64,000 bases of DNA, taken from Halorubrum salsamenti (GTDB lineage Archaea > Halobacteriota > Halobacteria > Halobacteriales > Haloferacaceae). Position numbers and translations under genes: made by a program. The DNA lies in the NCBI RefSeq assembly GCF_007671685.1, contig NZ_VCNL01000001.1, positions 620,001 through 684,000 on the forward strand, read 5' to 3'. Below are positions 40,655 to 58,253 of the stretch, one piece after another (within the stretch, counting starts at the first letter, position 1; every line of letters begins with the position of its first letter). The notes below the pieces were generated by a model. That model saw only the letters and a program-made list of their open reading frames with translations. It was not told the DNA's origin and did not search any database.

Positions 40655-43600
40655 CGCCGGTCACCTCCATCGAGCCGCGCGACGCGCGTTCCTCGATGTC
40701 GCCGTCGACGGTGAGGTTGCGGTCCCGCAGCGCTCTGACGGCCTCCTCGTCGGCGTCCCAGAGCCCGCGGTCGATCGCCTCCAGGAGCGTGTCCGTGATC
40801 GACTCTAACGCCCACGGGTTGACGTCGCGCATCCAGTCGGCCCGGTCGTCGTCGAGGGCGTACTTCTCGGCGACGTCCCGCCAGAGGCGGTCGGAGACGA
40901 CGCCGGTCGTCGCGTCCCATCCGAGCGCCACGTCGACCGTCTTCGAGAGGTCGCCCGCGCCCTTGTAGCCGTGTTCCTCCATCGAGTCGAGCCAGTCGGG
41001 GTTGAGAACTCGCGCGCGCATGGCCTTCCGAACCTTCTCCTCGTTCGTGTAGACGTCGACGTTGTCGGGGTCGGATGAGTCGCCCACGTACGACGCCGGT
41101 TCCTCGCCGGCCACCTCGGTGACGGCGGTGATGAACCCGCCGTGGAACGCGTACCAGTCGGAGGAGTCGAACTCGTCCTGTTCCATCGTGTCCTCGATCT
41201 TCACCGTCGCCTCGACGTTGCCGAGCCGACGCTCGAACGCGTCGTGCGCCGCGGAGGCGGTGCCCCGGGAACCGAGCGCGTAGCCGCCCCACTGGACGTA
41301 CACGTCCGCCAGGTCCGCGGCGTCGTCCCAGTTCCCCTCGTCGACGGCCTTGTTGGTTCCCGCGCCGTAGCCGCCGGGGCGCGTCGTGAACACGCGGTGT
41401 CTCGCGGCCGCCTCGGGGTCGTCGTGGCCGTCGGCGGCCAGCGCCTCGGCCTCCTCCTCGACGTGTTTCTTCACGTAGTTCATCTCGTGCGGCTCGTCGA
41501 GGTCGACCACCGCGTCGACCGCGTCGTGGATGACGCTCGCGGCCTGCGGGAACGCGTCCCTGAACAGGCCGGAGACGCGGGTCGTGGCGTCGACGCGGGG
41601 GCGATCCAGCTCGTCGAGCGGAATCGGCTCTACGTCGTCGACCCGCCCCGCGTCGGTCCAGACGGGCTCGACGCCCATCGTGGCGAGCACCTGCGCGATC
41701 GTCTCGCCGCGAGTCCGAACGGTCGGCGTCCCCCACGCGACGACGCCGATCTCTTCGGGGTATTCGCCTTCCTCGTCGCGATGGCGGGCGAGCGTGTCGG
41801 CGGCGATCTCGCGGCCGACGTCCCACGCGGCCTTGGCGGGCACCTTCCGCGGGTCGAGGGTGTAGAAGTTCCGCCCGGTTGGAAGCAGGTCGACGCCCCC
41901 GCGAGTGGGCGCCCCGGAGCCGCCCGGCGGGACGTACTCGCCGGCCAGCGCGTCGGCCGTGCGCGGGATCTCCGCTTCGGCACCGCGAACGCGAGGCGCG
42001 GCTTCCTCGGCGATGAACCGCAGCGCGTCCCGGAGGTCGTCGTGGGCGCCGCCGCGGACGCGGGCGTCGCCGAGCGGGTCGATACCGACGATCAGCAGGT
42101 TGATCGTCGTCTCGTCGTCCGCGTCGGCGTCCGATTCCGACTCGGGCACGTCGAAGCCGTGGGCGGCCAGCGTCCGGACGAGCTCCTTGCTCGTCTCGTA
42201 CACCTCGTCCGCGGCCTCACCGTAGGTCATGCCCAGCGTCTCGTCGTACTCACCCGGGGCGTCGAGCATCCGCTCGTAATCGACGCCGAGCACGCCGGCG
42301 ACCGACTCGCGGAGGCTCGGACCGCCGGGGTTCTCCAGCCGGGTGAGCGCGACGAGGTACTCCACGAGGCGGTCGTCGACCGGTGGCTCGCCCATCGTGT
42401 GAAGGCCCAACCGGATCTGGGTGTTCTTCACGTCGGTCAGGTACGCGTGGATCCGCTCGACGAGCTCGTCGGTGGCGAGTTCGTCGCCCGCGACCTCGCC
42501 CTCCGCGAGCGTCGAGCCGGCCGCGTCCGGCCCGCGAACGTCCGCCCGCTCGTCCATGTCGCCCGCGATCCCCAGCTCGACGGCGAGGTCGAGGTCGTCG
42601 ACCGTCTCCCGGATGAGTTCCCCCAGTCGGGCGCCCTCGTCGGTGCGGACCTCGGTGCCGCCCGCCTCGCGGTATCGGCGGGCGAGGTCCTCCAGTTCGG
42701 CCAGCTCGTCGTAGCTGCCAGCGCGACGCATCACCGGGGTCAGGTAGTCAACGACGGCGGCGTACGAGCGGCGCTTCGCTTGGGTCCCCTCGCCGGGGTT
42801 GTTCACGATGTACGGGTAGACGTTCGGGAGGTCGTCGATCAGGCCGTCCGGCGCCGAGCCGGAGCCGAGCCCGACCGTCTTGCCCGGCAACCACTCCAAC
42901 GAGCCGTGCGTGCCGAGGTGAACCACTGCGTCCGCGGCGAATTCGTTACGGAGCCACCCGTAGAAGGCGACGTAGTCGTGCGGCGGCCACAGATCGGAGT
43001 CGTGGTACACCTTCTCCGGGTCCATCCCGAACCCGCGCGGCGGCTGGACGGTGACGAGGACGTTTCCGAACTCGACGCCCGGGACCGCGAACGGCCGGTC
43101 GGGAGGGTCGCCCCACTCCTCGAGAACGCCGTCGCTGAATCGGTCGCTCGCCGCGTCGAACCACTCGGCGTACCGCGCTGGCGACACCGTGTCGACGCTG
43201 CGGTCGCGCACGTCGGCCGGCGCGACCCACCGGTCGTCGAGCGTGAGCTGGCCGGTGAGGACGTCGATGAGCTCCTCCCCGTCGGCGATCGGACCGGCAC
43301 CCGTCTCGTCGGCGGCGGCTGTCGCGTCGCGGGCGGTTTGCGTACCGAGATCGTACCCCCGACCGTTGAGCTCCTCCAGCAAGTTGACGGTCGATTCGGG
43401 TGAGTCGAGGCCGAACGCGGTCCCGATCCCGTCGTCGCTCGGCGGGTAGTTGTGCAGCACGACCGCGACCTTCTTCTCCTCATTCGGCGTGTGCCGGAGC
43501 TTCGCCCAGTTGACCGCGAGCCGCGCGGCGTGGTCGACGCGGTCCTCGATCGGGAAGTGCTGTTTGGGCGCTGAGCCGATGCCCGCGGCGTCGTCCGTGC

Positions 43601-44579
43601 GCTCTTTCCCCGAGATCGGATGCGTGATGACGTTCCCGTCGAACTCGGGGAGCGCGACCGAGAGCGCGAGTTCGAAGCCCATCACGCCGGTATCGCTCGA
43701 TTCGTACCGGGAACGCGAGCGCATCGTCGTCACGGTCTGGATCACCGGGACACCGAGATCGTCGAGGAACACGCTCTCCGCGTCGGCGCCCTCGTCCGCG
43801 GCGTCGCGCCCGCGATCGCTCATCGACAGCGAGAACATGAACGACGAGAGGACGGCGTCGACGATCGGGTCGCCTCGACCGTCGGTGAAGTAGTGCTCGG
43901 CCGTCCACTTCGCGTCCTCTTGGTTCGCCTCGTCGCTGACGGGATTACAGAACACGGGCAGCACGTTCGCGCCGAGCGCTTCCACTCGGCGGACCTGCGC
44001 GTCGACGTACCGGACGTTCTCGTGTGTCCAGTGGGACTCGTAGAACCAGACGCCGACCGTCGGCGCGTCCGCGTCGAACGTCGCGATCAGTTCCTCGTAG
44101 TCCGCGCCGGGGTAATCGGGGTGGTAGACGCCCTCCGTCGGGAGTTCGATCGGGTCGTCGATCCCACTCGCGACCTCGCCGTCGCCGTACTCCCGAGCGA
44201 GGAACCGCATCCCGTTCGAGATGTTGACCGTCCCGCCGTAGTCGAGGTACTCGGAGACCGTCTCCCGATCGGCCGGTGCGACGGTGGTGTCCTCCAGTGC
44301 GAAGGCGTCGCCCGTCGCTTTCACGACGAGCGGCACGCCGGCGTCACGGAGCTCATCGACCGCGAACTCGTACGCCGGCATGCTGTCTTGCCCGCCGTGG
44401 AGCCAGAGGACGACCGCGGCCGCGTCTCTGAGCTCGTCCACGAACGACGCCACGTCGCGCTGCTCGTCGAGGTCGCTGTCGGACCGAACGACGAGATCGA
44501 TTCCCGTGAGCTGCTCTGCGGCCGTCTGGACCGCTCCCAGCTCGTTCTCCGTCGCCGTGTAGAGGCCGATTTCCGTCAC
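40644..44579 (-). CDS. cobN: Cobaltochelatase large subunit CobN (ChlH/BchH family)
   Basis: 1311 residues, the normal size for CobN. It is the large porphyrin-binding subunit of an ATP-dependent chelatase that inserts cobalt into hydrogenobyrinate a,c-diamide (or Mg into protoporphyrin for ChlH; no chlorophyll genes are present). Conserved runs include VVLHNYPPSDDGIGTAFGLD, LGTHGSLEWLPGKTVGLG, RPRVDATTRVSGLFRDAFP and TRPGGYGAGTNKAV. It starts with GTG at 44579, preceded by a Shine-Dalgarno GAGGAGGT, unusual in this window. Divergent from the fused chelatase ATPase gene, only 33 bases apart. Confidence 0.95.
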   Translation of the reverse strand: MTEIGLYTATENELGAVQTAAEQLTGIDLVVRSDSDLDEQRDVASFVDELRDAAAVVLWLHGGQDSMPAYEFAVDELRDAGVPLVVKATGDAFALEDTTVAPADRETVSEYLDYGGTVNISNGMRFLAREYGDGEVASGIDDPIELPTEGVYHPDYPGADYEELIATFDADAPTVGVWFYESHWTHENVRYVDAQVRRVEALGANVLPVFCNPVSDEANQEDAKWTAEHYFTDGRGDPIVDAVLSSFMFSLSMSDRGRDAADEGADAESVFLDDLGVPVIQTVTTMRSRSRYESSDTGVMGFELALSVALPEFDGNVITHPISGKERTDDAAGIGSAPKQHFPIEDRVDHAARLAVNWAKLRHTPNEEKKVAVVLHNYPPSDDGIGTAFGLDSPESTVNLLEELNGRGYDLGTQTARDATAAADETGAGPIADGEELIDVLTGQLTLDDRWVAPADVRDRSVDTVSPARYAEWFDAASDRFSDGVLEEWGDPPDRPFAVPGVEFGNVLVTVQPPRGFGMDPEKVYHDSDLWPPHDYVAFYGWLRNEFAADAVVHLGTHGSLEWLPGKTVGLGSGSAPDGLIDDLPNVYPYIVNNPGEGTQAKRRSYAAVVDYLTPVMRRAGSYDELAELEDLARRYREAGGTEVRTDEGARLGELIRETVDDLDLAVELGIAGDMDERADVRGPDAAGSTLAEGEVAGDELATDELVERIHAYLTDVKNTQIRLGLHTMGEPPVDDRLVEYLVALTRLENPGGPSLRESVAGVLGVDYERMLDAPGEYDETLGMTYGEAADEVYETSKELVRTLAAHGFDVPESESDADADDETTINLLIVGIDPLGDARVRGGAHDDLRDALRFIAEEAAPRVRGAEAEIPRTADALAGEYVPPGGSGAPTRGGVDLLPTGRNFYTLDPRKVPAKAAWDVGREIAADTLARHRDEEGEYPEEIGVVAWGTPTVRTRGETIAQVLATMGVEPVWTDAGRVDDVEPIPLDELDRPRVDATTRVSGLFRDAFPQAASVIHDAVDAVVDLDEPHEMNYVKKHVEEEAEALAADGHDDPEAAARHRVFTTRPGGYGAGTNKAVDEGNWDDAADLADVYVQWGGYALGSRGTASAAHDAFERRLGNVEATVKIEDTMEQDEFDSSDWYAFHGGFITAVTEVAGEEPASYVGDSSDPDNVDVYTNEEKVRKAMRARVLNPDWLDSMEEHGYKGAGDLSKTVDVALGWDATTGVVSDRLWRDVAEKYALDDDRADWMRDVNPWALESITDTLLEAIDRGLWDADEEAVRALRDRNLTVDGDIEERASRGSMEVTGDDD

Positions 44580-44616
44580 AAGTTATTAAACCTCCTCTGT
44601 AATAACACAAGTATGG
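44577..44616. promoter_or_regulatory. Compact divergent promoter of cobN and the ChlI/ChlD gene
   Basis: The 33 bases between the starts hold a perfect inverted repeat GTTATTA (44582-44588) and TAATAAC (44600-44606) with an 11-base spacer. CACAAGT occurs at 44577-44583 and at 44606-44612. A TTATTAAA box 23-30 bases before the rightward ATG acts as TATA, and GAGGAGGT in the spacer is the leftward ribosome binding site. A regulator bound here could control both chelatase subunits at once. Confidence 0.6.
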
Positions 44617-46838
44617 TTGATTTGGGGACAAACAAAAAAGTTTCCACCCCCCTGCCGGCGGTCGTCGGTCAAGCGGATCTCAAACGAGTGCTTCTCGCGT
44701 TAGCGGTCGAACCGAGTCTCGGCGGCGCCCTCCTCAGGGGCGAAAAGGGGACTGCCAAATCGACGTCTGTCAGGGCGCTCGCGGACCTGTTACCCGAACA
44801 GACGGTCGTCGCCGATTGCCCGTACGGGTGTCCGCCAACGAACGCAACCGGGACCACGGGCGACCATTCCGCGAGCGGCCAGTGTGCGTCGTGCCGCGAT
44901 CGCGAGGATCCGCCAGTGGAAACGAGACCGGCTCCGCTCGTGACGCTCCCGCTCGGTGCGACCCGCGACCGAGTGGTCGGGACGCTCTCCGTCTCCGACG
45001 CGCTCGACGGCGACGCCGAGTTCGACCCGGGACTGCTCGCCCGCGCCAACCGCGGTGTCCTCTACGTCGACGAGGTCAACCTGCTTCCGGACCACCTGAT
45101 CGACGTGCTGCTTGACGCGGCCGCGATGGGGACGAACCGGGTGGAGCGCGACGGCGTCAGCGTCACCCACCCCGCCGACTTCACGCTGATCGGGACGATG
45201 AATCCGGAGGAGGGGGAGCTTCGACCCCAGCTGCGCGACCGCTTCGACCTCTGCGTCGACGTCACGGGGAGCGACGAGATCGACGAGCGCGTCGAGATTC
45301 TGGACCGAGTGGTCGACGACGGCGGCGGCCGGGACCTCCGCGCGGAGTTCGCGGCGGAGACGGCGGCCCTCCGGGAGCGCGTTCACGAGGCCCGCGACCG
45401 CTGCCCCGCGATTCCCGAGGGGTTCAAGCGCGACATCGCCGAGCTCTGCCGCGACGCGGACGTCGACGGCCACCGCGCCGATTTCGCCGTCGCTCGGGCC
45501 GCCCGGGCGTTCGCCGCGCTCGACGGACGCCCGAAGGTCATCGAGTCGGACGTGGCGGACGCCGCCGAGTACGCGCTGAGCCATCGATTACAGAGCCGTC
45601 CGTTCGAGGAGGCGGTCGACCCGGATGAGGTGGTGGACGATCACTTCGGCGACGACGCTGCCGAGGGCGACCGCGATCCAGAGGACGACACCGATCCGCA
45701 GGGGGACGGTGACGGGACGGATCCCGGGCCGGACGAGAGCGAGCCGGACGAGAGCGAGCCGGACGAGAGCGAGCCGGACGAGAGCGAGCCGGACGAGAGC
45801 GAGCCGGATCGAGGGTCCGGGGGCGACGGAGGGTCAGTCGAGGAGGAGAGTCGCTCTGACGCGGACGGCGAGGGCGGATCTGCCGAGCGCGATCCCGACG
45901 GATCCGACCCCGATCGGTCCGGCGCTCACGGTGGGTCCGGCTCGCGAGATACCGACGACTCCGAACGATCGCCGAGCAACGCGGCGGCTGCGGACCACGG
46001 CGACAGGGCGGACGGGGAGGCGCCCGAGTCCGACGGCGACGACGAGGCCGCACCGATCCCTCCCGGAGGCGCTCGCGCGGGGGTCGCCGACGCGGCGGCA
46101 CCGGAGGTCCCCTCGCCCGCGAGTCGCAGTGCCGCGACGGGAGCGGGCGGCGGCCGACACGCGGCGGCGCCGTCTCCCGAGGGTCGCGGGCCGACAGTGC
46201 GAACGGAACGCGCAGACGGGACAGAGTCCGTGGACCCGGTAGCAACCGTCCGGGCGGCGGCGCGGAACGGCCGATCACGACCGGCCGATACCGACCTCCG
46301 ACAGGCGGTTCGAGCGGGCGACGCCGACACGCTCACGGTGTTCGTCACGGACGCCAGCGCGTCGATGGCGCCCGCGATGCGCTCCGCGAAGGGCGTGGCG
46401 TTGGAACTGCTGCGCGACGCGTACACCGAGCGGGACGAGGTGGCGCTGGTTTCGTTCGGCGGCGACGGGGCCGAGATGCTCCTCCCGCCGACGACGAGCG
46501 TATCGCTGGCCGCGCGCCAGTTGAAGGAGCTCCCGACTGCGGATCGGACGCCGCTTCCGGACGGACTCCGCAAAGCCGCGGCGCTTATCGAGCGGAAAGA
46601 GCCGGCCGCGGCGACGGTCGTGCTCGTCTCCGACGGTCGCGCGAACGTCGCGAGGGGCAGTCCGACGACTGCGACCCGGCAAGCGGCCGAACGGATCGCG
46701 GAAACGGACGCGTCCGTGCTCGTCGTCGACGCGGGAGAGTCGAGGGCCGGCGTTCTCGACATCGTGTGCGAGACGACGGACGCGAGGCGGACCCCGCTCG
46801 CCGCGCTCTCACCGGAATCCGTGCTCGGAGACCACTAG
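44613..46838 (+). CDS. Fused ChlI-ChlD-type chelatase ATPase/VWA subunit
   Basis: 741 residues. AAA+ domain (about 15-330): Walker A GEKGTAKST, Walker B VLYVDEVNLLPDHLIDVL, arginine-finger region PQLRDRFDLCVDV, and a CPYGCPP ... CASC insert that could bind zinc. An acidic low-complexity linker (about 345-540) includes five DESEP repeats. The C-terminal von Willebrand factor A domain (about 560-741) has a MIDAS D-x-S-x-S in VTDASASMAPA. This combines the small and middle chelatase subunits, which with CobN would form the complete ATP-driven cobalt chelatase. It is leaderless and divergent from cobN. Confidence 0.88.
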   Translation: MVDLGTNKKVSTPLPAVVGQADLKRVLLALAVEPSLGGALLRGEKGTAKSTSVRALADLLPEQTVVADCPYGCPPTNATGTTGDHSASGQCASCRDREDPPVETRPAPLVTLPLGATRDRVVGTLSVSDALDGDAEFDPGLLARANRGVLYVDEVNLLPDHLIDVLLDAAAMGTNRVERDGVSVTHPADFTLIGTMNPEEGELRPQLRDRFDLCVDVTGSDEIDERVEILDRVVDDGGGRDLRAEFAAETAALRERVHEARDRCPAIPEGFKRDIAELCRDADVDGHRADFAVARAARAFAALDGRPKVIESDVADAAEYALSHRLQSRPFEEAVDPDEVVDDHFGDDAAEGDRDPEDDTDPQGDGDGTDPGPDESEPDESEPDESEPDESEPDESEPDRGSGGDGGSVEEESRSDADGEGGSAERDPDGSDPDRSGAHGGSGSRDTDDSERSPSNAAAADHGDRADGEAPESDGDDEAAPIPPGGARAGVADAAAPEVPSPASRSAATGAGGGRHAAAPSPEGRGPTVRTERADGTESVDPVATVRAAARNGRSRPADTDLRQAVRAGDADTLTVFVTDASASMAPAMRSAKGVALELLRDAYTERDEVALVSFGGDGAEMLLPPTTSVSLAARQLKELPTADRTPLPDGLRKAAALIERKEPAAATVVLVSDGRANVARGSPTTATRQAAERIAETDASVLVVDAGESRAGVLDIVCETTDARRTPLAALSPESVLGDH
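45731..45805 (+). repeat. Five 15-bp tandem repeats encoding DESEP
   Basis: GGACGAGAGCGAGCC recurs at 45731, 45746, 45761, 45776 and 45791 without change. It encodes the acidic linker of the chelatase subunit. Copy number is likely to vary between strains. Confidence 0.95.
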
Positions 46839-48167: not shown

Positions 48168-48971
48168 CTAGAACGCGTCCGAATCGAGCACCCGGTGGGG
48201 AACGTTCTTATCGCGGAGTTTGGAGGTGTGTCGCGGGATCTCGTCGGTCACCGCGACCAGGAGAACGTCGAGGCCGAGCATCCCCGCCTCGGCGACGCCC
48301 TCTGCGGTCCCGAACCTGATGTCCGGGTCGACGTCGCTCTGAGAAACGAGCGCATACGCCTCCGTCCCGGCGACCGCAACGAGTCCCTCGTCCGGGACGT
48401 GTGTCGAGACCATGTCCGAATTCAGGCGGTCGTCATCGGTGACGGTCGGGACGGGCAACACCGAGACGCTTCCCGTGTCGTAGTCCACGACGCCCTCGAA
48501 GTCGGCGACGCCGACGGCCTCGCCCTTTTCGGCGCTCGTGACGGTGACCGCGGTCGCCGTGCCGCCGGCGGGGTTGGCGTGGAGAACACCCTCTCGCATC
48601 ACCAGTCCGACCTCTCTCCCTTCCGCCACGTCGTCGAGCGCGATGGCAGCGTCGACCTCGACGCTGCCGAGGACGTCGGAATTCACCCGTTCGAGGTACG
48701 TCTCGAGGTCGTCGGTCCGGGAGATGAGCCAGTCGACCCCCTCCTTCGTCACTTCGTACCGACCGCGGCCGCCCTTCTCGACGTAGCCCGACTCGACCAG
48801 GTCCCGGACGTAATCGCTGACCGCCTGCGAGGTCACGCCGATCGTGTCGGCGATCTCACCCTGACTCACCGCGGGCTGTCGGGCCGCGATCTCGACGAGC
48901 ACCTGGTAGCGCGTCGCGCTCCGCTTGTTCTCGAGGACGTCCGGCGATCCTTCGCCCGCTGAGTCTCCCAT
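48168..48971 (-). CDS. Winged-helix regulator with haloarchaeal sensor domain
   Basis: 267 residues from the ATG at 48971; the TTTATT box at 48994-48999 lies 23-28 bases upstream, so an earlier GTG at 48992 is less likely. The N-terminal winged helix is YQVLVEIAARQPAVSQGEIA then DTIGVTSQAVSDYVRDLVE. The C-terminal part (about 100-267) is a conserved haloarchaeal domain (VVDYDTGSVSVLPVPTVTDD ... IPRHTSKLRDKNVPHRVLDS). It sits in the middle of the cobalamin locus, between the cobalt-uptake and the cbi operons, with CACAAGT in its own promoter, which makes it the prime candidate regulator. The ligand is unknown. Confidence 0.7.
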   Translation of the reverse strand: MGDSAGEGSPDVLENKRSATRYQVLVEIAARQPAVSQGEIADTIGVTSQAVSDYVRDLVESGYVEKGGRGRYEVTKEGVDWLISRTDDLETYLERVNSDVLGSVEVDAAIALDDVAEGREVGLVMREGVLHANPAGGTATAVTVTSAEKGEAVGVADFEGVVDYDTGSVSVLPVPTVTDDDRLNSDMVSTHVPDEGLVAVAGTEAYALVSQSDVDPDIRFGTAEGVAEAGMLGLDVLLVAVTDEIPRHTSKLRDKNVPHRVLDSDAF

Positions 48972-49024
48972 TACCGGATGTTCAGATGCCACAAATAAAG
49001 TCTTGTTGTCTATTTCACTGTTTA

Positions 49025-49031: not shown

Positions 49032-49121
49032 TGAGTGCGATCCTCAGCGCCTATCCGTAAAATTGACTTTTCTTAATACAACCAAAATTGTTTTGTGACG
49101 CGGTACACTTGTACATCGCGA

Positions 49122-49691
49122 ATGCAGGCGACAAAACTCCCGAACGACGCGAAAGCGGGCCCGACCAAGCCGGAGGTCCGTGCGGTGTTGGCGCGAAAGC
49201 TCGCGCTCGGTCCCGACGACCACTTCGTCGAGGTCGGCTCCTGTACCGGCGCGGTAACGATCGAGGCCGCTCGCCGCGCGGGGCGGGTGACGGCGCTCGA
49301 ACGGAAAGCGGAACGGCTCGAAACCACCCGAGCGAACCTCGCCGCGAACGAGTACGACGCCGACGTGCGGCTCGTCAACGCCGAGGCGCCGGAGCGGCTT
49401 CCGGACGACGGCGACGTGGTGTTCCTCGGGGGATCGCGAAACTACGAGCGCGTTCTCGACGACGCCGTCGCCGCCGACTACGATCGGGTAGTCATGAACG
49501 TGTCCCGTCTCGAGGTCGCGGGTGAAGCGGCTCGGGCCTTCCGCGACCGCGACCTCCTCGACGAGGCGCTGTGCCTCCAGATGGCGACCGGCTACGACCT
49601 CGCGGGCGCGACGAGCTTCGACGCCGACAACCCGGTGTACATGCTCGTCGGCGAGCCGGGGTCCAGTGACGAACCGGGTGATAGCGAATGA
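49122..49691 (+). CDS. cbiT: Cobalt-precorrin-6B (C15)-methyltransferase (decarboxylating)
   Basis: 189 residues from MQATKLPNDAKAGPTK. Class I methyltransferase fold: HFVEVGSCTGAVTIEAARRA binds SAM; VTALERKAERLETTRANL follows. CbiT methylates C15 and removes the acetate carboxyl at C12. The opening GPTKPEVRAVLARKLAL is typical of CbiT. First gene of the long cbi operon; ACTTGTAC lies just upstream. Confidence 0.93.
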   Translation: MQATKLPNDAKAGPTKPEVRAVLARKLALGPDDHFVEVGSCTGAVTIEAARRAGRVTALERKAERLETTRANLAANEYDADVRLVNAEAPERLPDDGDVVFLGGSRNYERVLDDAVAADYDRVVMNVSRLEVAGEAARAFRDRDLLDEALCLQMATGYDLAGATSFDADNPVYMLVGEPGSSDEPGDSE

Positions 49692-49719
49692 CTCGGACGG
49701 TCCGGATCGGGGGCGTCGA

Positions 49720-50463
49720 ATGACCCTGTACGGCGTGGGACTCGGTCCCGGCGATCCCGACCTGATCTCCGTTCGCGGACGGGAGATCCTCGACGGAGTC
49801 GACGTGGTGTACTCTCCGGGTCGACTCTCGCGGGCGGTCGCGACCGAACACGTCCCGGAGAGCCGGATCGGGGACCTCGATTTCCCGATGACGAGCGACG
49901 AGGAGCGGCTGCGCGAGGCGTGGAAGGAGGCCGCGGCCGAGATCGCCCCCGAAGCGCGCGCCGGCGACGTCGCGTTCGTCACGCTCGGCGACCCGAACGT
50001 GTACTCCACGTTCGGACACCTCAGCCGGACGCTCGACGCGTTCCATCCCGACGTCGACGTGGAGATCGTGCCCGGGATCAGCGCGATGACGGCGTTCGCG
50101 ACCGCGCTCGACGTCGAGATCGAGGCCGGCGCCGGGCTCGCGCTCCGCGAGGCCGCCGGCGGACGCGCACCTACCGGGCCCGACAGGATGGTCCTGTTCA
50201 AAGTGACCGACGCCCCCGAGACGGCCCGCAAACTCGACCGGGCGGGCTACGACGTGCGGTTCGGGCGGCGGCTGTTCATGGAAGCGGGCGAGACGGTCGT
50301 CACCGGAGACGCCGAGACGGTCGCGGACCGCGACTACTACACGCTCGCGTACGCCGAACGCCGCGGTCTCGAGACGTCGCGGGCGACCGACGAGTTCGCG
50401 GCCGACGCGGACGCGAACGGCCGCGTCTCCGCGACCGCCGACGCAGAGGTGGGCGATGACTGA
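49720..50463 (+). CDS. cbiL: Cobalt-factor II C20-methyltransferase
   Basis: 247 residues. Tetrapyrrole methylase marks: YGVGLGPGDPDLISVRGRE, FVTLGDPNVYSTFGHLSRT and EIVPGISAMTAFATAL. It transfers a methyl group to C20 of cobalt-factor II, the first committed step of the corrin branch. The ATG at 49720 is 28 bases after cbiT; its stop overlaps the cbiF start by 8 bases. The C-terminus has an acidic, disordered tail. Confidence 0.93.
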   Translation: MTLYGVGLGPGDPDLISVRGREILDGVDVVYSPGRLSRAVATEHVPESRIGDLDFPMTSDEERLREAWKEAAAEIAPEARAGDVAFVTLGDPNVYSTFGHLSRTLDAFHPDVDVEIVPGISAMTAFATALDVEIEAGAGLALREAAGGRAPTGPDRMVLFKVTDAPETARKLDRAGYDVRFGRRLFMEAGETVVTGDAETVADRDYYTLAYAERRGLETSRATDEFAADADANGRVSATADAEVGDD

Positions 50464-51388
50464 CGAACCGGTCGATTCGCGGGCGGCCATCGACGCCGTT
50501 GGCGACCGGACGGCGGGCGAACTCGACCCGCGGGTCCACGAGTACACCGCCGGCGAGGACCAAGACGGAATTCCGTTCGTCGGTGCCGGCCCGGGCGACC
50601 CCGGCCTCCTCACCGTGCGCGGCAAGGAACTGGTCGACGAGGCCGACCTCGTCGTCCACGCCGGGTCGCTGGTATCCAGCGCGCTCTTAGAGGAACACTG
50701 CGCGGACGCGGAGCTGGTGAACTCCGTGGGCAAGGACCTCGAAGAGCTGATCCCGCTGATGCGGGACGCCCACGAGAACGGACGAACCGTCGTCAGACTC
50801 CACAGCGGCGACCCCGCGGTGTACGGCGCCGCCCTCGAGCAGATCGACGCGCTCGAACGCGAGGGCGTCCCGGCGTACATCGTTCCCGGCGTCACCTCGT
50901 CGTTCGCGGCGGCGGCGACGCTGCGCACCCAGCTCACGCTGAACGGCGTCGCGAACCACGTCGCGTTCACGCGTCCGCGGGGAAAGACGCTCGACGCGGA
51001 GGACGACCACGTCGCCGAGTTCGTCGAGATGGGCGACGTGACGACCTGTATCTACCTCGGCACCCACGCGGTGAGTGACACGATGGACCGCCTGCTCGAC
51101 CGCGACGGCGTCGACCCGGAGACGCCGGTCGCGGTCGTCTATCACGCCTCGTGGGACGACGAGGACGTGATCACCGGATCGATCGCCGACATCGGCGAGA
51201 AGGTGGAGGCGGCCGGCTACCGCGCGTCCGCGATGGTCCTCATCGGCGAGGCCGCGACGGGTGCGGGATACGAGCGGTCGTTCCTCTACGGCGACTGGGC
51301 GAACGGCGGAGCGGCGGACGCGGGGAGCGACGGATCGAATAGCGCCGGAGACGCCGCGGAGACGACCGAAACGGAGGCCGACGACTGA
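50456..51388 (+). CDS. cbiF: Cobalt-precorrin-4 (C11)-methyltransferase
   Basis: 310 residues. IPFVGAGPGDPGLLTVRGKE, VVRLHSGDPAVYGAALEQID and IVPGVTSSFAAAATL are the CbiF/CobM set. About 40 extra N-terminal and 40 acidic C-terminal residues flank the domain. It overlaps cbiL by 8 bases and cbiG by 1. Confidence 0.94.
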   Translation: MTDEPVDSRAAIDAVGDRTAGELDPRVHEYTAGEDQDGIPFVGAGPGDPGLLTVRGKELVDEADLVVHAGSLVSSALLEEHCADAELVNSVGKDLEELIPLMRDAHENGRTVVRLHSGDPAVYGAALEQIDALEREGVPAYIVPGVTSSFAAAATLRTQLTLNGVANHVAFTRPRGKTLDAEDDHVAEFVEMGDVTTCIYLGTHAVSDTMDRLLDRDGVDPETPVAVVYHASWDDEDVITGSIADIGEKVEAAGYRASAMVLIGEAATGAGYERSFLYGDWANGGAADAGSDGSNSAGDAAETTETEADD

Positions 51389-52389
51389 TGAGCACCGACA
51401 GCGACGGCGGGACGAACGCGAGTAGCACCGAAGGCGACGACTCCGGCGGCGGGCACTGTTCGACGGCGGACTCGGACGGCGAAGTGGCGGAGGAGATCGC
51501 GGTCATCAGCTTCGAGCGGAAGCTCGACACCGCCACGGAGATCGTCGAGGGGATCGGCGACCGCTACGAGTCGATCGACGTGATCGAGTACCACGGCGAC
51601 GTGTTCGCCGAGCACTGGGGCGAGTACGACTGCTTCGTCGGACTGATGGCCTCCGGGATCGCCATGCGGAAGACCGCGCCGCTGCTCGACGACAAGTGGG
51701 ACGACCCCGCGATCGTCGTGGTCGACGAGGAGCTCACGTGGGCGATCCCGATCACCGGCGGTCACCACGGCGCCAATCAAGTTGCGGACGACCTCGCGAC
51801 GCTCGGCGCCGTGCCGGCCATGACCACCGCCTCGGAGGCGGCGGACAAACAGGGCGTCGAGAAGCAGGCGAAGGCGCTGTCCGCACACGTCGTCAACGGC
51901 GATTCCACGGTCGCGACGAACCTCGCCGTCCTCGACGACGAGCTCGGCCCGGTCGAACGGCTCGACGGGCCGCGTGCGGTGGTGGTCGACGACGACGTGA
52001 CGGTCCTCAAACGAAACCTCGACGACGGGGTCGTACTCGGTACGGGCTCGGTCTCCGGCGCGGACGAAGACCGCTTCCTCGACGCGTGGGACCGAGCACT
52101 CGCCGAGATCGATCGGGACTGGGCCGACGTCGAGTTCGTCGCCACCGCGACGCGAAAGGCCGACGAGGAGGGGCTTCTCGCCGCGGCCGCGACGCGTGAC
52201 GTCGGGGTCGTCGCGTTCGACAAGGAGACTCTGCTCGAGTTCGAGGGACCGACGCCGTCGAAGGCGAAGGAGCTCATCGGCTGGCCGGGCGTCGCCGAGG
52301 CGAGCGCTATCGCCGGCGGCGCCGACCACGAACTCGTCGCGGAGAAGACCAGCTACGAAAACGAAGTGACCGTGGCGGTGGGGCGATGA
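51388..52389 (+). CDS. cbiG: Cobalt-precorrin-5A hydrolase
   Basis: 333 residues. It opens the ring A delta-lactone and releases the C2 unit as acetaldehyde, allowing ring contraction. Marks: CFVGLMASGIAMRKTAPLL, IPITGGHHGANQVADDLA and a C-terminal CobE/GbiG-type region (TATRKADEEGLLAAA ... GWPGVAEASAIA). The first 45 residues are a Ser/Asp/Gly-rich extension. It shares bases with both neighbours. The Co-precorrin-5B C1-methyltransferase (CbiD) expected next in the pathway is not in this operon. Confidence 0.93.
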   Translation: MSTDSDGGTNASSTEGDDSGGGHCSTADSDGEVAEEIAVISFERKLDTATEIVEGIGDRYESIDVIEYHGDVFAEHWGEYDCFVGLMASGIAMRKTAPLLDDKWDDPAIVVVDEELTWAIPITGGHHGANQVADDLATLGAVPAMTTASEAADKQGVEKQAKALSAHVVNGDSTVATNLAVLDDELGPVERLDGPRAVVVDDDVTVLKRNLDDGVVLGTGSVSGADEDRFLDAWDRALAEIDRDWADVEFVATATRKADEEGLLAAAATRDVGVVAFDKETLLEFEGPTPSKAKELIGWPGVAEASAIAGGADHELVAEKTSYENEVTVAVGR

Positions 52390-53327
52390 CCGGGAACGGC
52401 TCGGCGCCCGGCGGCGCGGACGACGCGCCGGACGGCATGGGAACGCTGTACGTCGTCGGTATCGGCCCGGGACTCCCGCACGCGATGACGCAGCGGGCCC
52501 GCGACGTGATACGCCACGCCGACTGCGTCATCGCGTCGAACCTCTACCAGGAGTTCCTCCGGCGGGACGGGACCATCCCGCCCGAGTCGCGGACGGAGGA
52601 GGCCGCCGCCACGGACGGCGGTGCCGCGGTCGGCTCGGTCGACGACGCCGACTGGACGGCCGGAAACGTCGGCACCCATCCCGACGGCGAGACCGTCGAG
52701 ATCGTGCGGTCCTCGATGGGACAGCAGATCGAACTCGCCCGCGAGGCATTCGAGCGCGTCCGCGCCGGACAGGACGTGGCGCACGTCTCCGGCGGCGATC
52801 CCAACGTGTACGGGAAGTCCGACCTCGTCTATCTGATGGCCGACGAGGACGACGCCGACGACGTCCCGATCGAGATCGTGCCCGGCGTGACGGCCGCGCT
52901 CGGCGGTGCCGCGATGGTCGGCGCGCCGCTCTCGAACGACTTCTGTACGATCTCGCTGTCGGACAAGTGGCGCGGCTGGGAGGAGATCGCGGAGAAGCTC
53001 CGCGCCGCGGCGGTGTCGGGGTTCACGATCGTCCTCTACAACTGCTGGCGCGACTACGAGCGCGCGATCGAGGTGCTCCGGGAACACCGCACCGACGACG
53101 CCCCCGTCGCGATCGTCAACGACGCCGGCCGCGGCGAGGCCGGCCGCAACCTGGACGACGAGACGTACACGCTGACGACGCTGGGCGAGGCGACCGACCA
53201 CGACGACGAGGTCGGCGGCATGGGCACGTCCCTGGTCGTCGGCACCCACGAGACGGAAGTCTGGGAGAACGACTACGACCGGTTCCTCGTCACCCCGCGT
53301 GGCGGGCGAGACGTCGACGACTTCTGA
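52386..53327 (+). CDS. cbiH: Precorrin-3B/cobalt-factor III C17-methyltransferase, paralogue 1
   Basis: 313 residues. LYVVGIGPGLPHAMTQRARD, HVSGGDPNVYGKSDLVYLM and VPGVTAALGGAAMVGAPLSN belong to the CbiH/CobJ ring-contracting methylase. A roughly 40-residue Gly/Asp-rich insert (about 62-100) is not found in compact homologues. Two base-overlaps tie it to cbiG; cbiH2 follows after 2 bases. Confidence 0.88.
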   Translation: MTGNGSAPGGADDAPDGMGTLYVVGIGPGLPHAMTQRARDVIRHADCVIASNLYQEFLRRDGTIPPESRTEEAAATDGGAAVGSVDDADWTAGNVGTHPDGETVEIVRSSMGQQIELAREAFERVRAGQDVAHVSGGDPNVYGKSDLVYLMADEDDADDVPIEIVPGVTAALGGAAMVGAPLSNDFCTISLSDKWRGWEEIAEKLRAAAVSGFTIVLYNCWRDYERAIEVLREHRTDDAPVAIVNDAGRGEAGRNLDDETYTLTTLGEATDHDDEVGGMGTSLVVGTHETEVWENDYDRFLVTPRGGRDVDDF

Positions 53328-53329
53328 CA

Positions 53330-54406
53330 ATGAGTGACACCACCTGCGGATCGACGGACGAATCGAGCTCGAACTGCGGCGACAGCGATCCCGAGACGGT
53401 GATCGACGGGGACGCGGCGAGCGACGGTGGCCGCGCAGCGAACGACGCGGCGAGCGACGGTGGCCGCGCAGCGAACGACGCGGTGAGCGACGGCGGAGCG
53501 GCGACGGAGAACACGAGCGCGTCGTCGCCGTCGTGCGGCGCGAGCGACTCCAGCGGCTCCTCCTCGTGCGGTGCCTCGAAATCCGCGGCGACGGACGAGA
53601 AGGTCGGAGCGACTGCCGACGACTTCGACGCCGACCCGGGGCGGCTGTTCGCCGTCGGACTCGGTCCCGGGCAGCCGGAGGGGATGACCCAGCGCGCCCG
53701 GGCGACGCTGCTGGAGGCGGACCACATCGTCGGGTACACGACGTACATAGACCTGATTCCGGACGACGTCACCGAGGCCGCCGACGAGCTGTACGACACG
53801 CCGATGTGCGGCGAGGTCTCTCGGACCGAAGAGGCGGTCGACCGAGCGCTCGCGGGCAACGACGTCGCCATCGTCGGCTCCGGCGATCCGAACGTGTACG
53901 CGCTCGGCGGGCTCGCGCTCGAGATCATCGAGTCGAAGGGCGCGACGGCGTCGGCGCTCGACTTCGAGGTCGTCCCCGGCGTCCCGGCCGCGCAGTCGTG
54001 TGCCGCCCGCGCCGGCGCGCCGCTCGTCAACGACTCGGTGTCGATCTCGCTGTCGGACCACCTCACGCCGATGGCGGACATCGAGTCGCGACTCCACGCG
54101 GTCGCGGCCGAGGGGTTCACGATCGCGATATACAACCCGTGGAGCCGGAAGCGACGCGAGAACTTCGAGACGGCCTGCGAGATCCTCTTGGAACACCGAC
54201 CGGCCGACACGCCGGTGGGCGTCGTCCACGGCGCCGGGCGCGACGACGAGGCCGTCGAAATCGTCGAACTCGGCGGGCTGAAGTCGCTCGGCGAGACCGA
54301 CCTCGTCGACATGACGACCACGCTGCTCGTCGGCAACGAGGAGACGTACGTCTGGGACGGCCGGATGATCACCCCGCGCGGCTACGAGAGCAAGTATGAC
54401 TACTGA
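53330..54406 (+). CDS. CbiH paralogue 2 with Cys/Ser-rich N-terminal extension
   Basis: 358 residues. The second half (about 105-358: LFAVGLGPGQPEGMTQRARA, VGSGDPNVYALGGLALEI, PGVPAAQSCAARAGAPL and YNPWSRKRRENFETA) is a full CbiH-type methylase. The first 100 residues are low-complexity with Cys at positions about 6, 16, 70 and 79 (SPSCGASDSSGSSSCGAS), and include a 33-bp tandem repeat. Haloarchaea commonly carry two CbiH genes; one may do a different methylation. It overlaps the ferredoxin gene by 11 bases. Confidence 0.82.
   Translation: MSDTTCGSTDESSSNCGDSDPETVIDGDAASDGGRAANDAASDGGRAANDAVSDGGAATENTSASSPSCGASDSSGSSSCGASKSAATDEKVGATADDFDADPGRLFAVGLGPGQPEGMTQRARATLLEADHIVGYTTYIDLIPDDVTEAADELYDTPMCGEVSRTEEAVDRALAGNDVAIVGSGDPNVYALGGLALEIIESKGATASALDFEVVPGVPAAQSCAARAGAPLVNDSVSISLSDHLTPMADIESRLHAVAAEGFTIAIYNPWSRKRRENFETACEILLEHRPADTPVGVVHGAGRDDEAVEIVELGGLKSLGETDLVDMTTTLLVGNEETYVWDGRMITPRGYESKYDY
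53411..53476 (+). repeat. 33-bp perfect tandem repeat (two copies)
   Basis: The unit GACGCGGCGAGCGACGGTGG plus CCGCGCAGCGAAC occurs at 53411-53443 and 53444-53476, encoding a repeated DAASDGGRAAN in the extension of cbiH2. A third, degenerate partial copy (GACGCGGTGAGCGACGGCGG) follows. Confidence 0.95.
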
Positions 54407-54677
54407 GCGCCTCGACACCGGGACGACGTACCGCGTCTCCGTCGATCTGAACGCCTGCGACGGCGTCTTCGCCTGCCTCGTCCGCGACGACCGGTTCGTC
54501 GAGGCCGACGGGGGGCTCGTCGGCTTCGACCTCACAGACGCCGTGGACCCGGTCGAGCGCACCGCCGACGAGGTCGCCGCGACGTTCCGTGACGGGCGCA
54601 TCGACGAGGCGCAGGCGGCCGCGGCGGCCTGTCCGCTGGACGCGATCACCGTCGAGGAACGCGAGGGGGAGGCATGA
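54396..54677 (+). CDS. Small ferredoxin with reduced cysteine set
   Basis: 93 residues. DLNACDGVFACLVRDDRF plus AAAACPLDAITVEE match half of a bacterial-type ferredoxin. The first cluster has C-x5-C (CDGVFAC), so the middle Cys of CxxCxxC is Val, leaving three Cys, consistent with a [3Fe-4S] cluster or an open iron site. It lies between cbiH2 and the next operon gene and probably delivers electrons within cobalamin synthesis. Confidence 0.7.
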   Translation: MTTERLDTGTTYRVSVDLNACDGVFACLVRDDRFVEADGGLVGFDLTDAVDPVERTADEVAATFRDGRIDEAQAAAAACPLDAITVEEREGEA

Positions 54678-55387
54678 GCGCCGTCGAGACGACGCCGGAC
54701 GACATGCTCGCCCGACACCCGGAGACGGCCTATTTCTGGGGCCACGTCGCCGGCGGCGGCCAAGTGACCGATCGAGGGATCGAGATCGAAGTCGTCGATG
54801 AGGACGCGGCGCGTCGTCTGTCCGCGATCGCTGGCGGCGGAACCGTCGATCACCGGATCGCCGAACGCGACTTCGCTCACGACACGGCAGTCACCCGGCA
54901 GGCCGACGAGTACACGGTGCAGATCATCGATCCGACGCTGGCCGCGAACGCCGCCGCGGCGCTCGGACTGCCGGTGGGATCGGACTCCGGCGGATATCGG
55001 TTCGACGCCCTCCGCGACCACCGTCGAGAGCTGCTTCGCGGGCTGTTGGAGGCGTGCGGCGTCGTCTGCTTCCGCGAGTCGAGCGCCGCGGTCGGCATCT
55101 CGTTCGTCCACGACGACTCCCGGCTGTTGAAGCGGATCCGGACGACGCTCGACGCGGCGGGGTTCGACTCCGAGGAACCGCAACCGTCCTCGTCGGGCGG
55201 CCACTGGTTCGGAGTCGCAGACGGCGACACGACCGCGTTCGCCGAGTGGGTCTACGAGGGGGCCGGCGATAGCGGGCTGTTCGCGACGAACCGTCGCCGA
55301 AAGACGCTCCGAAGCGTCGAGCGGGCCGCGGGTCTCGATGTCGGGAGCCTCATCGAAGCGACCGACACGGACGGAGGAGGCTCATGA
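54674..55387 (+). CDS. Degenerate LAGLIDADG-fold protein in the cobalamin operon, unknown function
   Basis: 237 residues. Two similar halves are seen. Half 1 opens AYFWGHVAGGGQVTDRGIEI; half 2 opens ELLRGLLEACGVVCFRESSA and ends with FAEWVYEGAGDSGLFATNRR, a pattern that closes many LAGLIDADG repeats. The acidic residue that homing nucleases need at the end of the motif is Gly in half 1 and Cys in half 2, so DNA cutting is unlikely. It overlaps both neighbours by 4 bases, so it is made together with the pathway enzymes. A DNA- or RNA-binding regulatory role, or a new catalytic use of the fold, is inferred. Confidence 0.55.
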   Translation: MSAVETTPDDMLARHPETAYFWGHVAGGGQVTDRGIEIEVVDEDAARRLSAIAGGGTVDHRIAERDFAHDTAVTRQADEYTVQIIDPTLAANAAAALGLPVGSDSGGYRFDALRDHRRELLRGLLEACGVVCFRESSAAVGISFVHDDSRLLKRIRTTLDAAGFDSEEPQPSSSGGHWFGVADGDTTAFAEWVYEGAGDSGLFATNRRRKTLRSVERAAGLDVGSLIEATDTDGGGS

Positions 55388-56601
55388 GCCGGGCGGCAGA
55401 CGCCGTCGGAATCGGCGACGAGGAGACCGCGCTGCTCGTCGGCCACGGCTCTCGTCGGGACAAGTCGAACGAGGCGGTGCGCGAACTCGCGGCCGGTCTC
55501 GAGGACCGTCTCGGCGTCTCGACCGACGCCGCGTTCCTCGAACTCGCGGAACCGTCGATCCCCGACGCCATCGGCACACTCGCGCACAGTTCGTCGCGGA
55601 TAACGATGGTGCCGCTGTCGCTTTTCGCGGCCAGTCACGTCAAAAACGACCTCCCGCTCGCCGTGAAGCGAGCGCGGAGCGAACACCCGGGCGTCACCTT
55701 CCACGCGGGCGCGCACCTCGGTATCCATCCGGCGATACTCGACCTCCTCGACGACCGGGCGCGGGACGTGGAGGCGGAGTTGGGGGTCGACCGCGACGAC
55801 GACGACGTCGCCGTCGTGGTCTGTGCCCGCGGCTCCTCGGACCCGGACTCGAACGCGGACGTGCACAAACTCGCCAGACTCCTGTACGAGGGTCGCTCGT
55901 TCGACCGGGTCGAAGCCGGGTTCATCGGTGTCACCGAACCGCTCCTCGGCGAGGTGCTCCACGACGTCGCGAAGACGCGACCGGACGCGATCGTCGTGCT
56001 GCCGTACATGCTCGGCGACGGCGTCTTGACCGGGCGGATCCGCGACGGAGCCGCGGAGTTCGACGCGGAGTACCCGTACGTCGACGCCGCTGCCGGCGAC
56101 CCGCTCGGAACGGACACCCGGCTGCTGGACGTTCTTTCAGACCGGTGGCAGGCGGCGCGGACCGACTCGGTCGACATGTCGTGTGACACGTGCAAGTACA
56201 AAGTCGAACTCGACGGGTACGAGGAAGACGAGGGTGGGGCACGCGCGATGCTCCGCGCACTGACCCACCAGCAGGCACACGAAGACCGTGACGACGTCGC
56301 CGACGAACCGCACACCCACGACGCTCCCGAGACACACCTCGCCGTCTGTACGAACCAGACGTGCGCGGCGGACGGTTCACCAGCCGTTCTGGAAAACCTC
56401 CGTCAGGCCGCCCGAGACGCCGACTCAGACGTTCACGTCACGCGATCGTCGTGTTTCGATCAGTGCGGCGACGGCCCGATCGTCGCGCAGTATCCCGATG
56501 GGGTGTGGTACGGCACCGGCGACGACGAAGACGCCGACCGAATCGTCTCCGCCGTCGAGCGGGACCGAATCGTTAGCGACCTCGTTCACCAAACGCTATG
56601 A
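55384..56601 (+). CDS. cbiX: Sirohydrochlorin cobaltochelatase fused to a 2Fe-2S ferredoxin domain
   Basis: 405 residues. Two CbiX halves: ALLVGHGSRRDKSNEAVREL ... VPLSLFAASHVKNDLPLAV (about 15-125), and VVVCARGSSDPDSNADVHKL ... VVLPYMLGDGVLTGRI (about 138-235). Metal-binding His residues are in GHGSR and ASHVKND. A linker CDTCKYK precedes a C-terminal thioredoxin-like ferredoxin (LAVCTNQTCAADGSPAVLEN ... SSCFDQCGDGPIV). CbiX puts Co2+ into sirohydrochlorin early in the anaerobic pathway; the ferredoxin suggests redox control or electron transfer. It overlaps the preceding gene by 4 bases. Confidence 0.9.
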   Translation: MSRAADAVGIGDEETALLVGHGSRRDKSNEAVRELAAGLEDRLGVSTDAAFLELAEPSIPDAIGTLAHSSSRITMVPLSLFAASHVKNDLPLAVKRARSEHPGVTFHAGAHLGIHPAILDLLDDRARDVEAELGVDRDDDDVAVVVCARGSSDPDSNADVHKLARLLYEGRSFDRVEAGFIGVTEPLLGEVLHDVAKTRPDAIVVLPYMLGDGVLTGRIRDGAAEFDAEYPYVDAAAGDPLGTDTRLLDVLSDRWQAARTDSVDMSCDTCKYKVELDGYEEDEGGARAMLRALTHQQAHEDRDDVADEPHTHDAPETHLAVCTNQTCAADGSPAVLENLRQAARDADSDVHVTRSSCFDQCGDGPIVAQYPDGVWYGTGDDEDADRIVSAVERDRIVSDLVHQTL

Positions 56602-56625: not shown

Positions 56626-57003
56626 ATGAGCTGTGACGAAATCGAAGCCCTGCGGCTCGGGCTTATGAACACTCTCGGAACCTCGGACGACGCCGTTCGA
56701 CGCCACGCAGAACAGGAACTCGGTGACAAACTCGACGAAGACACGCCGATCGCCGCCCTCGCGGCAGCCGAGTCCGTAGCGGAACTCCAACGACATCTCG
56801 ACGCCGCACTCGTCGACTTAGAGGAGACAGTCGCAGCCCTCGACACGGACGACCCGGAATATGCATACACTCGAGGGCGCCTCGTGGCCGTTCGGGACGC
56901 AGAGCGATCGCTAGCTCGACTCGCCGACTCGGGCGAGTCGTTCCTCGCCGATCTCGGGGACTCCCATCACACGCTTCACGAGGTGTTCCCTACCGAGGAG
57001 TGA
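56626..57003 (+). CDS. DUF3209-like helical protein at the end of the cbi operon
   Basis: 125 residues, mostly alpha-helical, acidic, with no metal motif apart from Cys3 and His113-His114 in GDSHHTLHEV. The start SCDEIEALRLGLMNTLGTSD agrees with what I recall of the DUF3209 family, found beside cbiX in haloarchaea and some bacteria. It begins 24 bases after cbiX. It may aid CbiX or store cobalt; neither is shown. Its stop lies only about 10 bases from the end of TnpB element 2. Confidence 0.55.
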   Translation: MSCDEIEALRLGLMNTLGTSDDAVRRHAEQELGDKLDEDTPIAALAAAESVAELQRHLDAALVDLEETVAALDTDDPEYAYTRGRLVAVRDAERSLARLADSGESFLADLGDSHHTLHEVFPTEE

Positions 57004-57010
57004 ACGTGAA

Positions 57011-57200
57011 CTACCCCACCCTACTCGCTCACCGCTGACGCGGTTCGCTCCTTGAGGGTGGGGCTTCCTGTTTCCACGACGCGCTTTGCAGACACCGAAT
57101 TGGTGTCCGTAGGGAGCGCAGTCTCCACAGGCGTTGATTCGGAGTATCCCACTCCTATGTCTTCGAGACCGCGAGAAAGGATGTTCCACGCCGCATTCGC
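57011..57200 (-). ncRNA. Predicted omega (re)RNA of TnpB element 2
   Basis: The tnpB stop (57021-57023) lies inside the right-end hairpin, so coding sequence and scaffold overlap. The guide would read leftward from about 57010 into the last bases of the DUF3209-like gene. The 5' end is a guess. Confidence 0.4.
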
Positions 57201-58253
57201 GTCCCTGTCCGCCTCGAACCCACACGACGGACACGAGTGTTCGCGCACCCACAGCGGCTTCTCCGTCTTGACACCGCAGGACGCGCACTCTTTCGTCGTA
57301 TCTTTCGGGTCAACTGCGACAAAGTGCGTCCCCTTGCGCTCGCACTTGTATTCGAGCATCCGGAGAAACGTCCCCCACGCCGCTCCTGCCCGGTTGCGTG
57401 AGTTGCCCGGCAGTTCGATCAAGCCCTTCGCGTCCAAGTCCTCAACCGCCACGAGGTCGTACTCGCAGGCGTAGTAGTTCGACAACTTGTGAAGGAAGTC
57501 CCGACGCTTCCGCTTGAGGTCGGCGTGGCATTCGGCCACGATCTGCCGTTGTTTCTCCCAATTTGCAGAGCCGTGTTCCTTCCGCGTGAGGTCGCGTTGT
57601 GCGCGTTCGAGTCGCTCACGTTCCTCGCTGAAATTGGGACTCTCGATGGCGTACCCGTCGGTGTCGTGTGCGTACTTGAGGATTCCCACGTCGATGCCGA
57701 CGACCCGCTCGGGATTCTGCGGCTTCTCTGGTGTATCCTCGTCCACGTCGATGCCGAACGTGGCATACCACTCGCCCGTGGGTTCGCGTTTGACCGCGAC
57801 CTGTTTGATGATCGCGTTCTCGGGGATGTCTCGGTGGAGACGAATCGGAATCTCGCCGATCTTGCTCAACCACGGCGTGGGCCGACCACTCGTATTCTTG
57901 AGTTCGAAGCCGGACTGGTTGTAGGTGAGCGACCGATACTCCCGAGGTGGTTTCCACTTGAGCATTCCCACGGTGCGTCCATTCTCCTTCTGTGCTTTGA
58001 GCGTAGAGAGGTTGTCGTAGACGCGCTTGACAACCATCTGGAGAACTTTCGAGTGGACATCTCCGAGGTCGTTCCACCACGATTTGAGGTCGGGGAGTCG
58101 CCCCTGAACCTCGTAGCGGGCGGGAATGTTGTCTGCCTCGTTGAGCAGGTGGAGGACGTGGTTGTAGAGTTGTCTACAAGTATCGACGTGGTACAGAAGC
58201 TCCTCTTCGAGGGCTTCTGGCGGGGTGAGTCGATACTTGTAGTTGTAGTGCAT
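57021..58253 (-). CDS. tnpB: TnpB RNA-guided nuclease, element 2
   Basis: 410 residues. RuvC residues: Asp188 (VVGIDVGILK), Glu271 (LVAVEDLDAK) and Asp351 (DRDANAAWNIL). Zinc finger: Cys323/Cys326 and Cys341/Cys344 (CASC ... CPSC). All catalytic residues are present, so it should be active. Sequence similarity to the TnpB at 32124 is low outside motifs. It starts 3 bases after the stop of a small partner gene. Confidence 0.9.
   Translation of the reverse strand: MHYNYKYRLTPPEALEEELLYHVDTCRQLYNHVLHLLNEADNIPARYEVQGRLPDLKSWWNDLGDVHSKVLQMVVKRVYDNLSTLKAQKENGRTVGMLKWKPPREYRSLTYNQSGFELKNTSGRPTPWLSKIGEIPIRLHRDIPENAIIKQVAVKREPTGEWYATFGIDVDEDTPEKPQNPERVVGIDVGILKYAHDTDGYAIESPNFSEERERLERAQRDLTRKEHGSANWEKQRQIVAECHADLKRKRRDFLHKLSNYYACEYDLVAVEDLDAKGLIELPGNSRNRAGAAWGTFLRMLEYKCERKGTHFVAVDPKDTTKECASCGVKTEKPLWVREHSCPSCGFEADRDANAAWNILSRGLEDIGVGYSESTPVETALPTDTNSVSAKRVVETGSPTLKERTASAVSE

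Follow-up and report, generated by a model that had tools for sequence, protein, structure and literature searches.

What is a protein with the fold of a homing endonuclease doing among the cobalamin biosynthesis genes of Halorubrum salsamenti? The protein, called P here, is encoded in the 64,000-nucleotide stretch of DNA analysed, hereafter the window, together with the following genes.

40644-44579, minus strand: cobN.
49122-49691, plus strand: the gene that opens the unit, a cbiT-like methyltransferase with a start inferred from the promoter.
49522-54406, plus strand: cbiL, cbiF, cbiG, cbiH1 and cbiH2, which belong to this unit too; the ORF listed at 49522 contains the cbiL start.
54396-54677, plus strand: single-cluster ferredoxin (Fer4_15), overlapping P by 4 nucleotides.
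54674-55387, plus strand: P, a LAGLIDADG-fold protein of 237 residues with pseudo-repeats at residues ~16-97 and ~110-194 and C-terminal helices.
55384-56601, plus strand: CbiX cobaltochelatase with a C-terminal 2Fe-2S ferredoxin-like part, overlapping P by 4 nucleotides.
56626-57003, plus strand: DUF3209 protein, with whose gene the unit ends.

The unit has the order cbiT-L-F-G-H1-H2-ferredoxin-P-cbiX-DUF3209, with cobN-cbiC-cbiE on the opposite strand and cbtAB close by. P shares positions 54674-54677 with the ferredoxin ORF and 55384-55387 with the CbiX ORF; the ORF and its overlaps of exactly 4 nucleotides are as the first-pass annotation had described them. Read from gene layout, these overlaps are shown to couple translation of P to that of the ferredoxin and CbiX, which supports the earlier proposal that P is co-translated with the cbi genes. 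Exact 4-nucleotide overlaps are found at 84 of 116 loci for P/CbiX and at 83 of 113 for ferredoxin/P, counted with the start closest to the upstream stop, a choice that favours short distances. Of 60 inspected loci, 58 have P immediately 5' of CbiX, and the gene before P is nearly always the ferredoxin; with this fixed position no sign of mobility (intron, intein, scattered sites) was seen. Its closest relatives, with identity up to 95%, are from Halorubrum. Fusions of P with its neighbours were considered and dropped, the long ORFs running across P being chance frames in GC-rich DNA. A further CbiX-family ORF, besides the neighbour of P, is present near cbiE/cbiC (38345-39094, plus strand), and the DUF3209 gene is directly upstream of an IS605 OrfB/TnpB-like ORF (57021-58253, minus strand).

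Searches with P of the window alone gave no match in Pfam or NCBIfam, and PHROGs yielded nothing useful. Structure prediction and family profiles support the LAGLIDADG fold proposed at first. An AlphaFold2 model built from an alignment of 30 relatives predicts a two-domain LAGLIDADG protein (pLDDT 86.6, pTM 0.85) in which the element order helix-strand-strand-helix-strand-strand-helix occurs twice, that is, a double LAGLIDADG; the pseudo-twofold alpha-beta-beta-alpha-beta-beta fold named beforehand as the test of the assignment is present in this predicted structure. The PDB matches listed for the model by Foldseek/VIA are all LAGLIDADG proteins: I-DmoI, the best of those listed (Z 16.7, with an rmsd of 2.9 across 178 residues), I-Tsp061I (Z 16.2), PI-PfuI (Z 15.4) and WhiA (Z 14.8), and Z is at least 2 for 433 and at least 8 for 153 of the 999 aligned chains. 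The fold covers residues ~12-221 of the 237, and no helix-turn-helix (HTH) is matched. PF14528 (LAGLIDADG_3) is matched by 20 of 30 relatives, one of which scores above the gathering threshold with two stretches (24.4 versus 22.5), and the family profile matches an RNA-polymerase intein (E=1.2e-6; hhalign 90%); when the same profile was run against PDB sequences, no LAGLIDADG chain was recovered. As judged from these sequence matches, the tie of P to LAGLIDADG proteins is one of homology, beyond mere analogy.

The archaeal intron-encoded endonucleases I-DmoI and I-Tsp061I and the PI-PfuI inteins have the same double LAGLIDADG fold as P over nearly its full length, at 13-15% identity. P differs from them in having no acid pair, no intron or intein around it and a fixed place in a metabolic operon, and it is not expected to cleave DNA. 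The match to the endonuclease domain of a haloarchaeal RNA-polymerase A'' intein (G206, L124) reaches 30% identity over 125 columns; unlike P, this intein retains splicing blocks and an acid in each motif (AEG, GDG). The domain, encoded within an RNA polymerase subunit gene (L124:661-3333), is the closest sequence relative found outside the P family. Genome G021 has a long ORF (L184:9362-11443) with an intein-like insert carrying LAGLIDADG-like motifs. WhiA (DUF199) resembles P in that a LAGLIDADG domain survives as a host gene in a non-cutting role, presumed in the case of P; it is bacterial and has a C-terminal HTH, whereas P has none, is found only in haloarchaea in our searches and belongs to a cbi operon. 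To our knowledge, few non-nuclease domesticated LAGLIDADG proteins have been described, WhiA being the model case, and none of them is part of a metabolic operon.

Three codons of P are central to what the fold may still do.

54755-54757, plus strand: codon 28, encoding Gly at the first of the two catalytic positions, where 82 of 132 relatives have Asp.
55055-55057, plus strand: codon 128, encoding Cys at the second catalytic position, where 128 of 133 relatives have Cys and none has an acid.
55067-55069, plus strand: codon 132, encoding a Cys that is present in all 133 sequences and is expected from LAGLIDADG geometry to face the groove.

The replacement of the metal-binding aspartates by Gly and Cys, reported by the first-pass annotation, is correct for P of the window (FWGHVAGGG and LRGLLEACG); it does not describe the family at the first site, where the residues other than Asp are Ser (25), Gly (12), Ala (7) and Asn (6). 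The second site has Ala in 3, Ser in 1 and Thr in 1 of the distinct relatives that depart from Cys. None of the 133 has acids at both positions, and 50 of 132 sequences, the window's among them, have no acid at either. To the extent that the alignment tells, the universal catalytic loss in the family is that of site 2, the Gly at site 1 being atypical. Since no acid pair occurs in 133 relatives, P is a domesticated and presumably non-cleaving member of the LAGLIDADG group. It is a working gene under purifying selection and no relic: comparison with seven Halorubrum relatives gives dN/dS values of 0.11-0.29, similar to those of the neighbouring enzymes. Besides Cys132, invariant residues in the 133 sequences are Gly141, Ser143, Glu126, Tyr194 and Lys210, and His69 is near-invariant. 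Known LAGLIDADG strand geometry suggests that Cys132, residue 134, Gly141 and Ser143 point into what was the DNA groove, and therefore one conserved ligand is likely.

Among the 391 genomes of the class, P is present in 204 and CbiG in 210; 202 have both, 8 CbiG alone and 2 P alone (Fisher p ~1e-98, kinship ignored). In 393 genomes sampled from the phylum, P had no match beyond the class, and a scan of viral contigs gave no relatives. The two genomes with P and no CbiG are G340, where P is at a contig edge, and G317, which has an intact orphan P and neither CbiG nor a cobaltochelatase-type CbiX. In G021, P is found between two Cation_efflux-family pumps, together with a rhodanese, in an apparent operon (L184:4445-7454), the cbi cluster being elsewhere; this copy is the most diverged one and keeps Cys128, Cys132, His69 and Ser143. 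In G052 (L094:7986-8927) P is gone and an extra CbiX paralogue occupies its place after the ferredoxin. Constant co-occurrence with cbi genes, as anticipated earlier, is found in 202 of 204 P-bearing genomes and breaks down in G317 and G340, while the expectation of no homologue outside a cobalamin context is contradicted by the G317 orphan and the G021 copy. Because of the exceptions G317 and G021, the association of P with cobalamin genes is strong (202/204) yet short of absolute.

The eight CbiG-bearing genomes without P, belonging to five genera, retain a cbi cluster. In seven of them (G001, G007, G129, G269, G319, G318 and G359) the cluster also lacks the ferredoxin and DUF3209, and CbiX in this deep cluster type is directly after CbiH2 or elsewhere. 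These seven clusters (L089-L093, L195, L196), from four families, are placed outside the P-bearing ones in the CbiG tree, which is a quick tree with long branches and unsure exact joins. CbiD and CbiJ were detected in none of the 22 haloarchaeal genomes tested, P-bearing or P-less, whereas the control genomes matched. Since the P-less genomes are also without CbiD and CbiJ, P is no general replacement for them, provided that the P-less clusters are functional; cobalamin synthesis in these genomes is assumed from their genes.

The window also carries the following putative regulatory elements.

49079-49094, plus strand: conserved operator CAACCAAAATTGTTTT before cbiT, not restricted to P-bearing genomes.
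44604-44619, minus strand: second copy of the operator, with 2 mismatches, before cobN.
48168-48992, minus strand: divergent MarR_2/DUF7839 regulator gene, to whose product the operator probably belongs.

Across genera, the region upstream of cbiT shares a long conserved element, TAATACAAsCAmAATTGTTTTA, and AACAATT occurs in 45 of 50 thinned cbiT promoters versus 1.2 expected. The operator, CAAnCAnAATTGTTTT, with the palindrome ACAA-N6-TTGT, is found before cbiT, cobN, cbiM, cbiH1, a CbiX-family gene and a MarR_2-type gene; the window has 2 matches versus 0.01 expected, further loci are L219, L220, L226, L229, L231, L246 and L248, and cobN copies are widespread. These copies likely mark a whole regulon of the MarR_2/DUF7839 regulator. 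P was dropped as owner of the operator because genomes without P have the core operator too and retain it before cbiT; in G008, a genome with no CbiG and no P, it precedes a MarR-like gene. The operator is best assigned to a conventional regulator, e.g., the divergent MarR_2/DUF7839 gene, rather than to P.

The proposal that P regulates its operon is weakened by this distribution, the operator before cbiT and cobN being found in P-less genomes too. As the second choice among the readings, we see it as possible, though doubtful, that P resembles WhiA as a regulator that binds nucleic acid without cleaving it, perhaps as an auxiliary activator that its own operon supplies and that acts near the cbiT promoter or on the operon mRNA. 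The repurposed role known for the fold is DNA binding, as in WhiA, and P is less acidic (-6.8 charges per 100 residues) than CbiF, CbiG, CbiH1, CbiX and DUF3209 (-10 to -16). A further TTG half-site downstream is present in 55 of 70 P-bearing promoters versus 1 of 8 P-less ones (Fisher p 4e-4), a comparison confounded by phylogeny, and it is missing at 15 P-bearing loci. A second, unnamed TrmB-dependent activator of the cob/cbi genes was inferred in Halobacterium (PMC3794607) and could be P or the MarR-like protein. However, the core operator stands before cbiM, cobN and a MarR-like gene in genomes without P and is explained by a conventional regulator, and P has no HTH and is encoded in mid-operon, overlapping enzyme genes. 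P may still bind some nucleic-acid site other than the conserved operator. That it acts as a site-specific nuclease or nickase through the first-site Asp alone is hardly credible: the residue is retained in the 82 relatives mentioned above, but the 50 acid-free sequences include P of the window, yet the gene is under purifying selection, and it has a fixed operon position with no surrounding intron or intein.

The other early proposal was that P is an enzyme for a missing step, here either the C1 methylation of CbiD type or the reduction of CbiJ type, and we now judge it unlikely. Pfeiffer and co-workers suggested in general terms that four unassigned cluster genes, the likely orthologue of P among them, are candidates for filling pathway gaps (PMC8305020), and the absence of CbiD and CbiJ from 22 of 22 genomes leaves room for such an activity. 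The same paper itself proposes an extra CbiH for the methylation. The eight genomes with a cbi cluster and none of P, CbiD and CbiJ weaken this reading, and P matches no SAM- or nucleotide-binding family. Also counting against it, we know of no enzymatic precedent for the LAGLIDADG fold beyond phosphodiester chemistry. Alternatively, ferredoxin, P and DUF3209 would form an oxygen-adaptation set that lets the 'anaerobic' early-cobalt pathway run aerobically, for instance by shielding reduced cobalt intermediates; this too has a low probability in our view, and it can overlap with the cobalt-handling role favoured below. With lifestyles read from marker genes only, COX1 is missing in 4 of the 391 genomes; three of these carry CbiG (two genera) and belong to the deep cluster type, which suggests that they are anaerobes, and all three are without P, while COX1 is present in 202 of 202 genomes with both P and CbiG. 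The same P-less clusters also have no ferredoxin and no DUF3209. Yet five CbiG-bearing genomes without P have COX1 (G052, G269, G319, G318 and G359), so that a strict anaerobe/aerobe split, which fits the COX1-less genomes, was rejected; independent events are few, and the P-less clusters group in the CbiG tree regardless of family.

The evidence leans to P helping cobalt insertion rather than serving as the DNA-binding switch of the operon or as a missing enzyme. We favour, tentatively and at somewhat less than even probability, an accessory role in cobalt handling or insertion together with CbiX, the ferredoxin and DUF3209. The ancestor of P would be an intein- or intron-type homing endonuclease that lost DNA cleavage and became fixed in one of two haloarchaeal cobalamin cluster types, as part of a module ferredoxin-P-CbiX-DUF3209. 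P would act as a protein at the cobalt-insertion stage, where its former DNA groove, lined by the invariant Cys132, Gly141 and Ser143 and the conserved His69, could accommodate cobalt, a tetrapyrrole or a protein partner, and would support or protect CbiX; it would be neither the main transcriptional switch of the operon nor the supplier of the missing CbiD and CbiJ steps. This stage is proposed because P is adjacent to CbiX, is translationally coupled and shares its absence with the ferredoxin and DUF3209; further reasons are the conserved Cys and His residues, the location beside efflux pumps in G021 and the CbiX copy that stands in the place of P in G052. The G021 neighbourhood is a single example, and overlapping genes show co-expression, not contact. 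Counting against the cobalt role are the precedent of the fold, the replacement of Cys128 by Ala, Ser or Thr in 5 of 133 relatives and the intact P of G317. The non-nuclease roles that we know for the fold are nucleic-acid binding (WhiA, maturases), with no metal- or tetrapyrrole-binding case. It is a more doubtful idea that a homing-endonuclease fold was recruited wholly away from nucleic acids, its groove serving as a dock for cobalt, a corrinoid or a protein, with the cobaltochelatase and the ferredoxin as partners.

In Haloferax volcanii, HVO_B0055 has the same cluster place as P, between HVO_B0056 and cbiX1 (HVO_B0054), and from this published gene order it is likely the orthologue of P (PMC8305020). 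That paper lists it as 'function unassigned', with no mention of a LAGLIDADG fold in the main text. We found no paper tying HVO_B0055 or P to LAGLIDADG among the open-licence literature, in which the gene is named only in PMC8305020. The gene and its position were already known from there, as was WhiA as a domesticated LAGLIDADG protein; P is new as a variant in a new setting. The haloarchaeal cobalamin pathway has two open steps and four unassigned genes, of which P is most likely one, and separating two haloarchaeal cobalamin cluster types narrows where the missing CbiD and CbiJ functions can sit. With a fold assigned and a genetic model at hand in Haloferax volcanii HVO_B0055, the role of P is directly testable.
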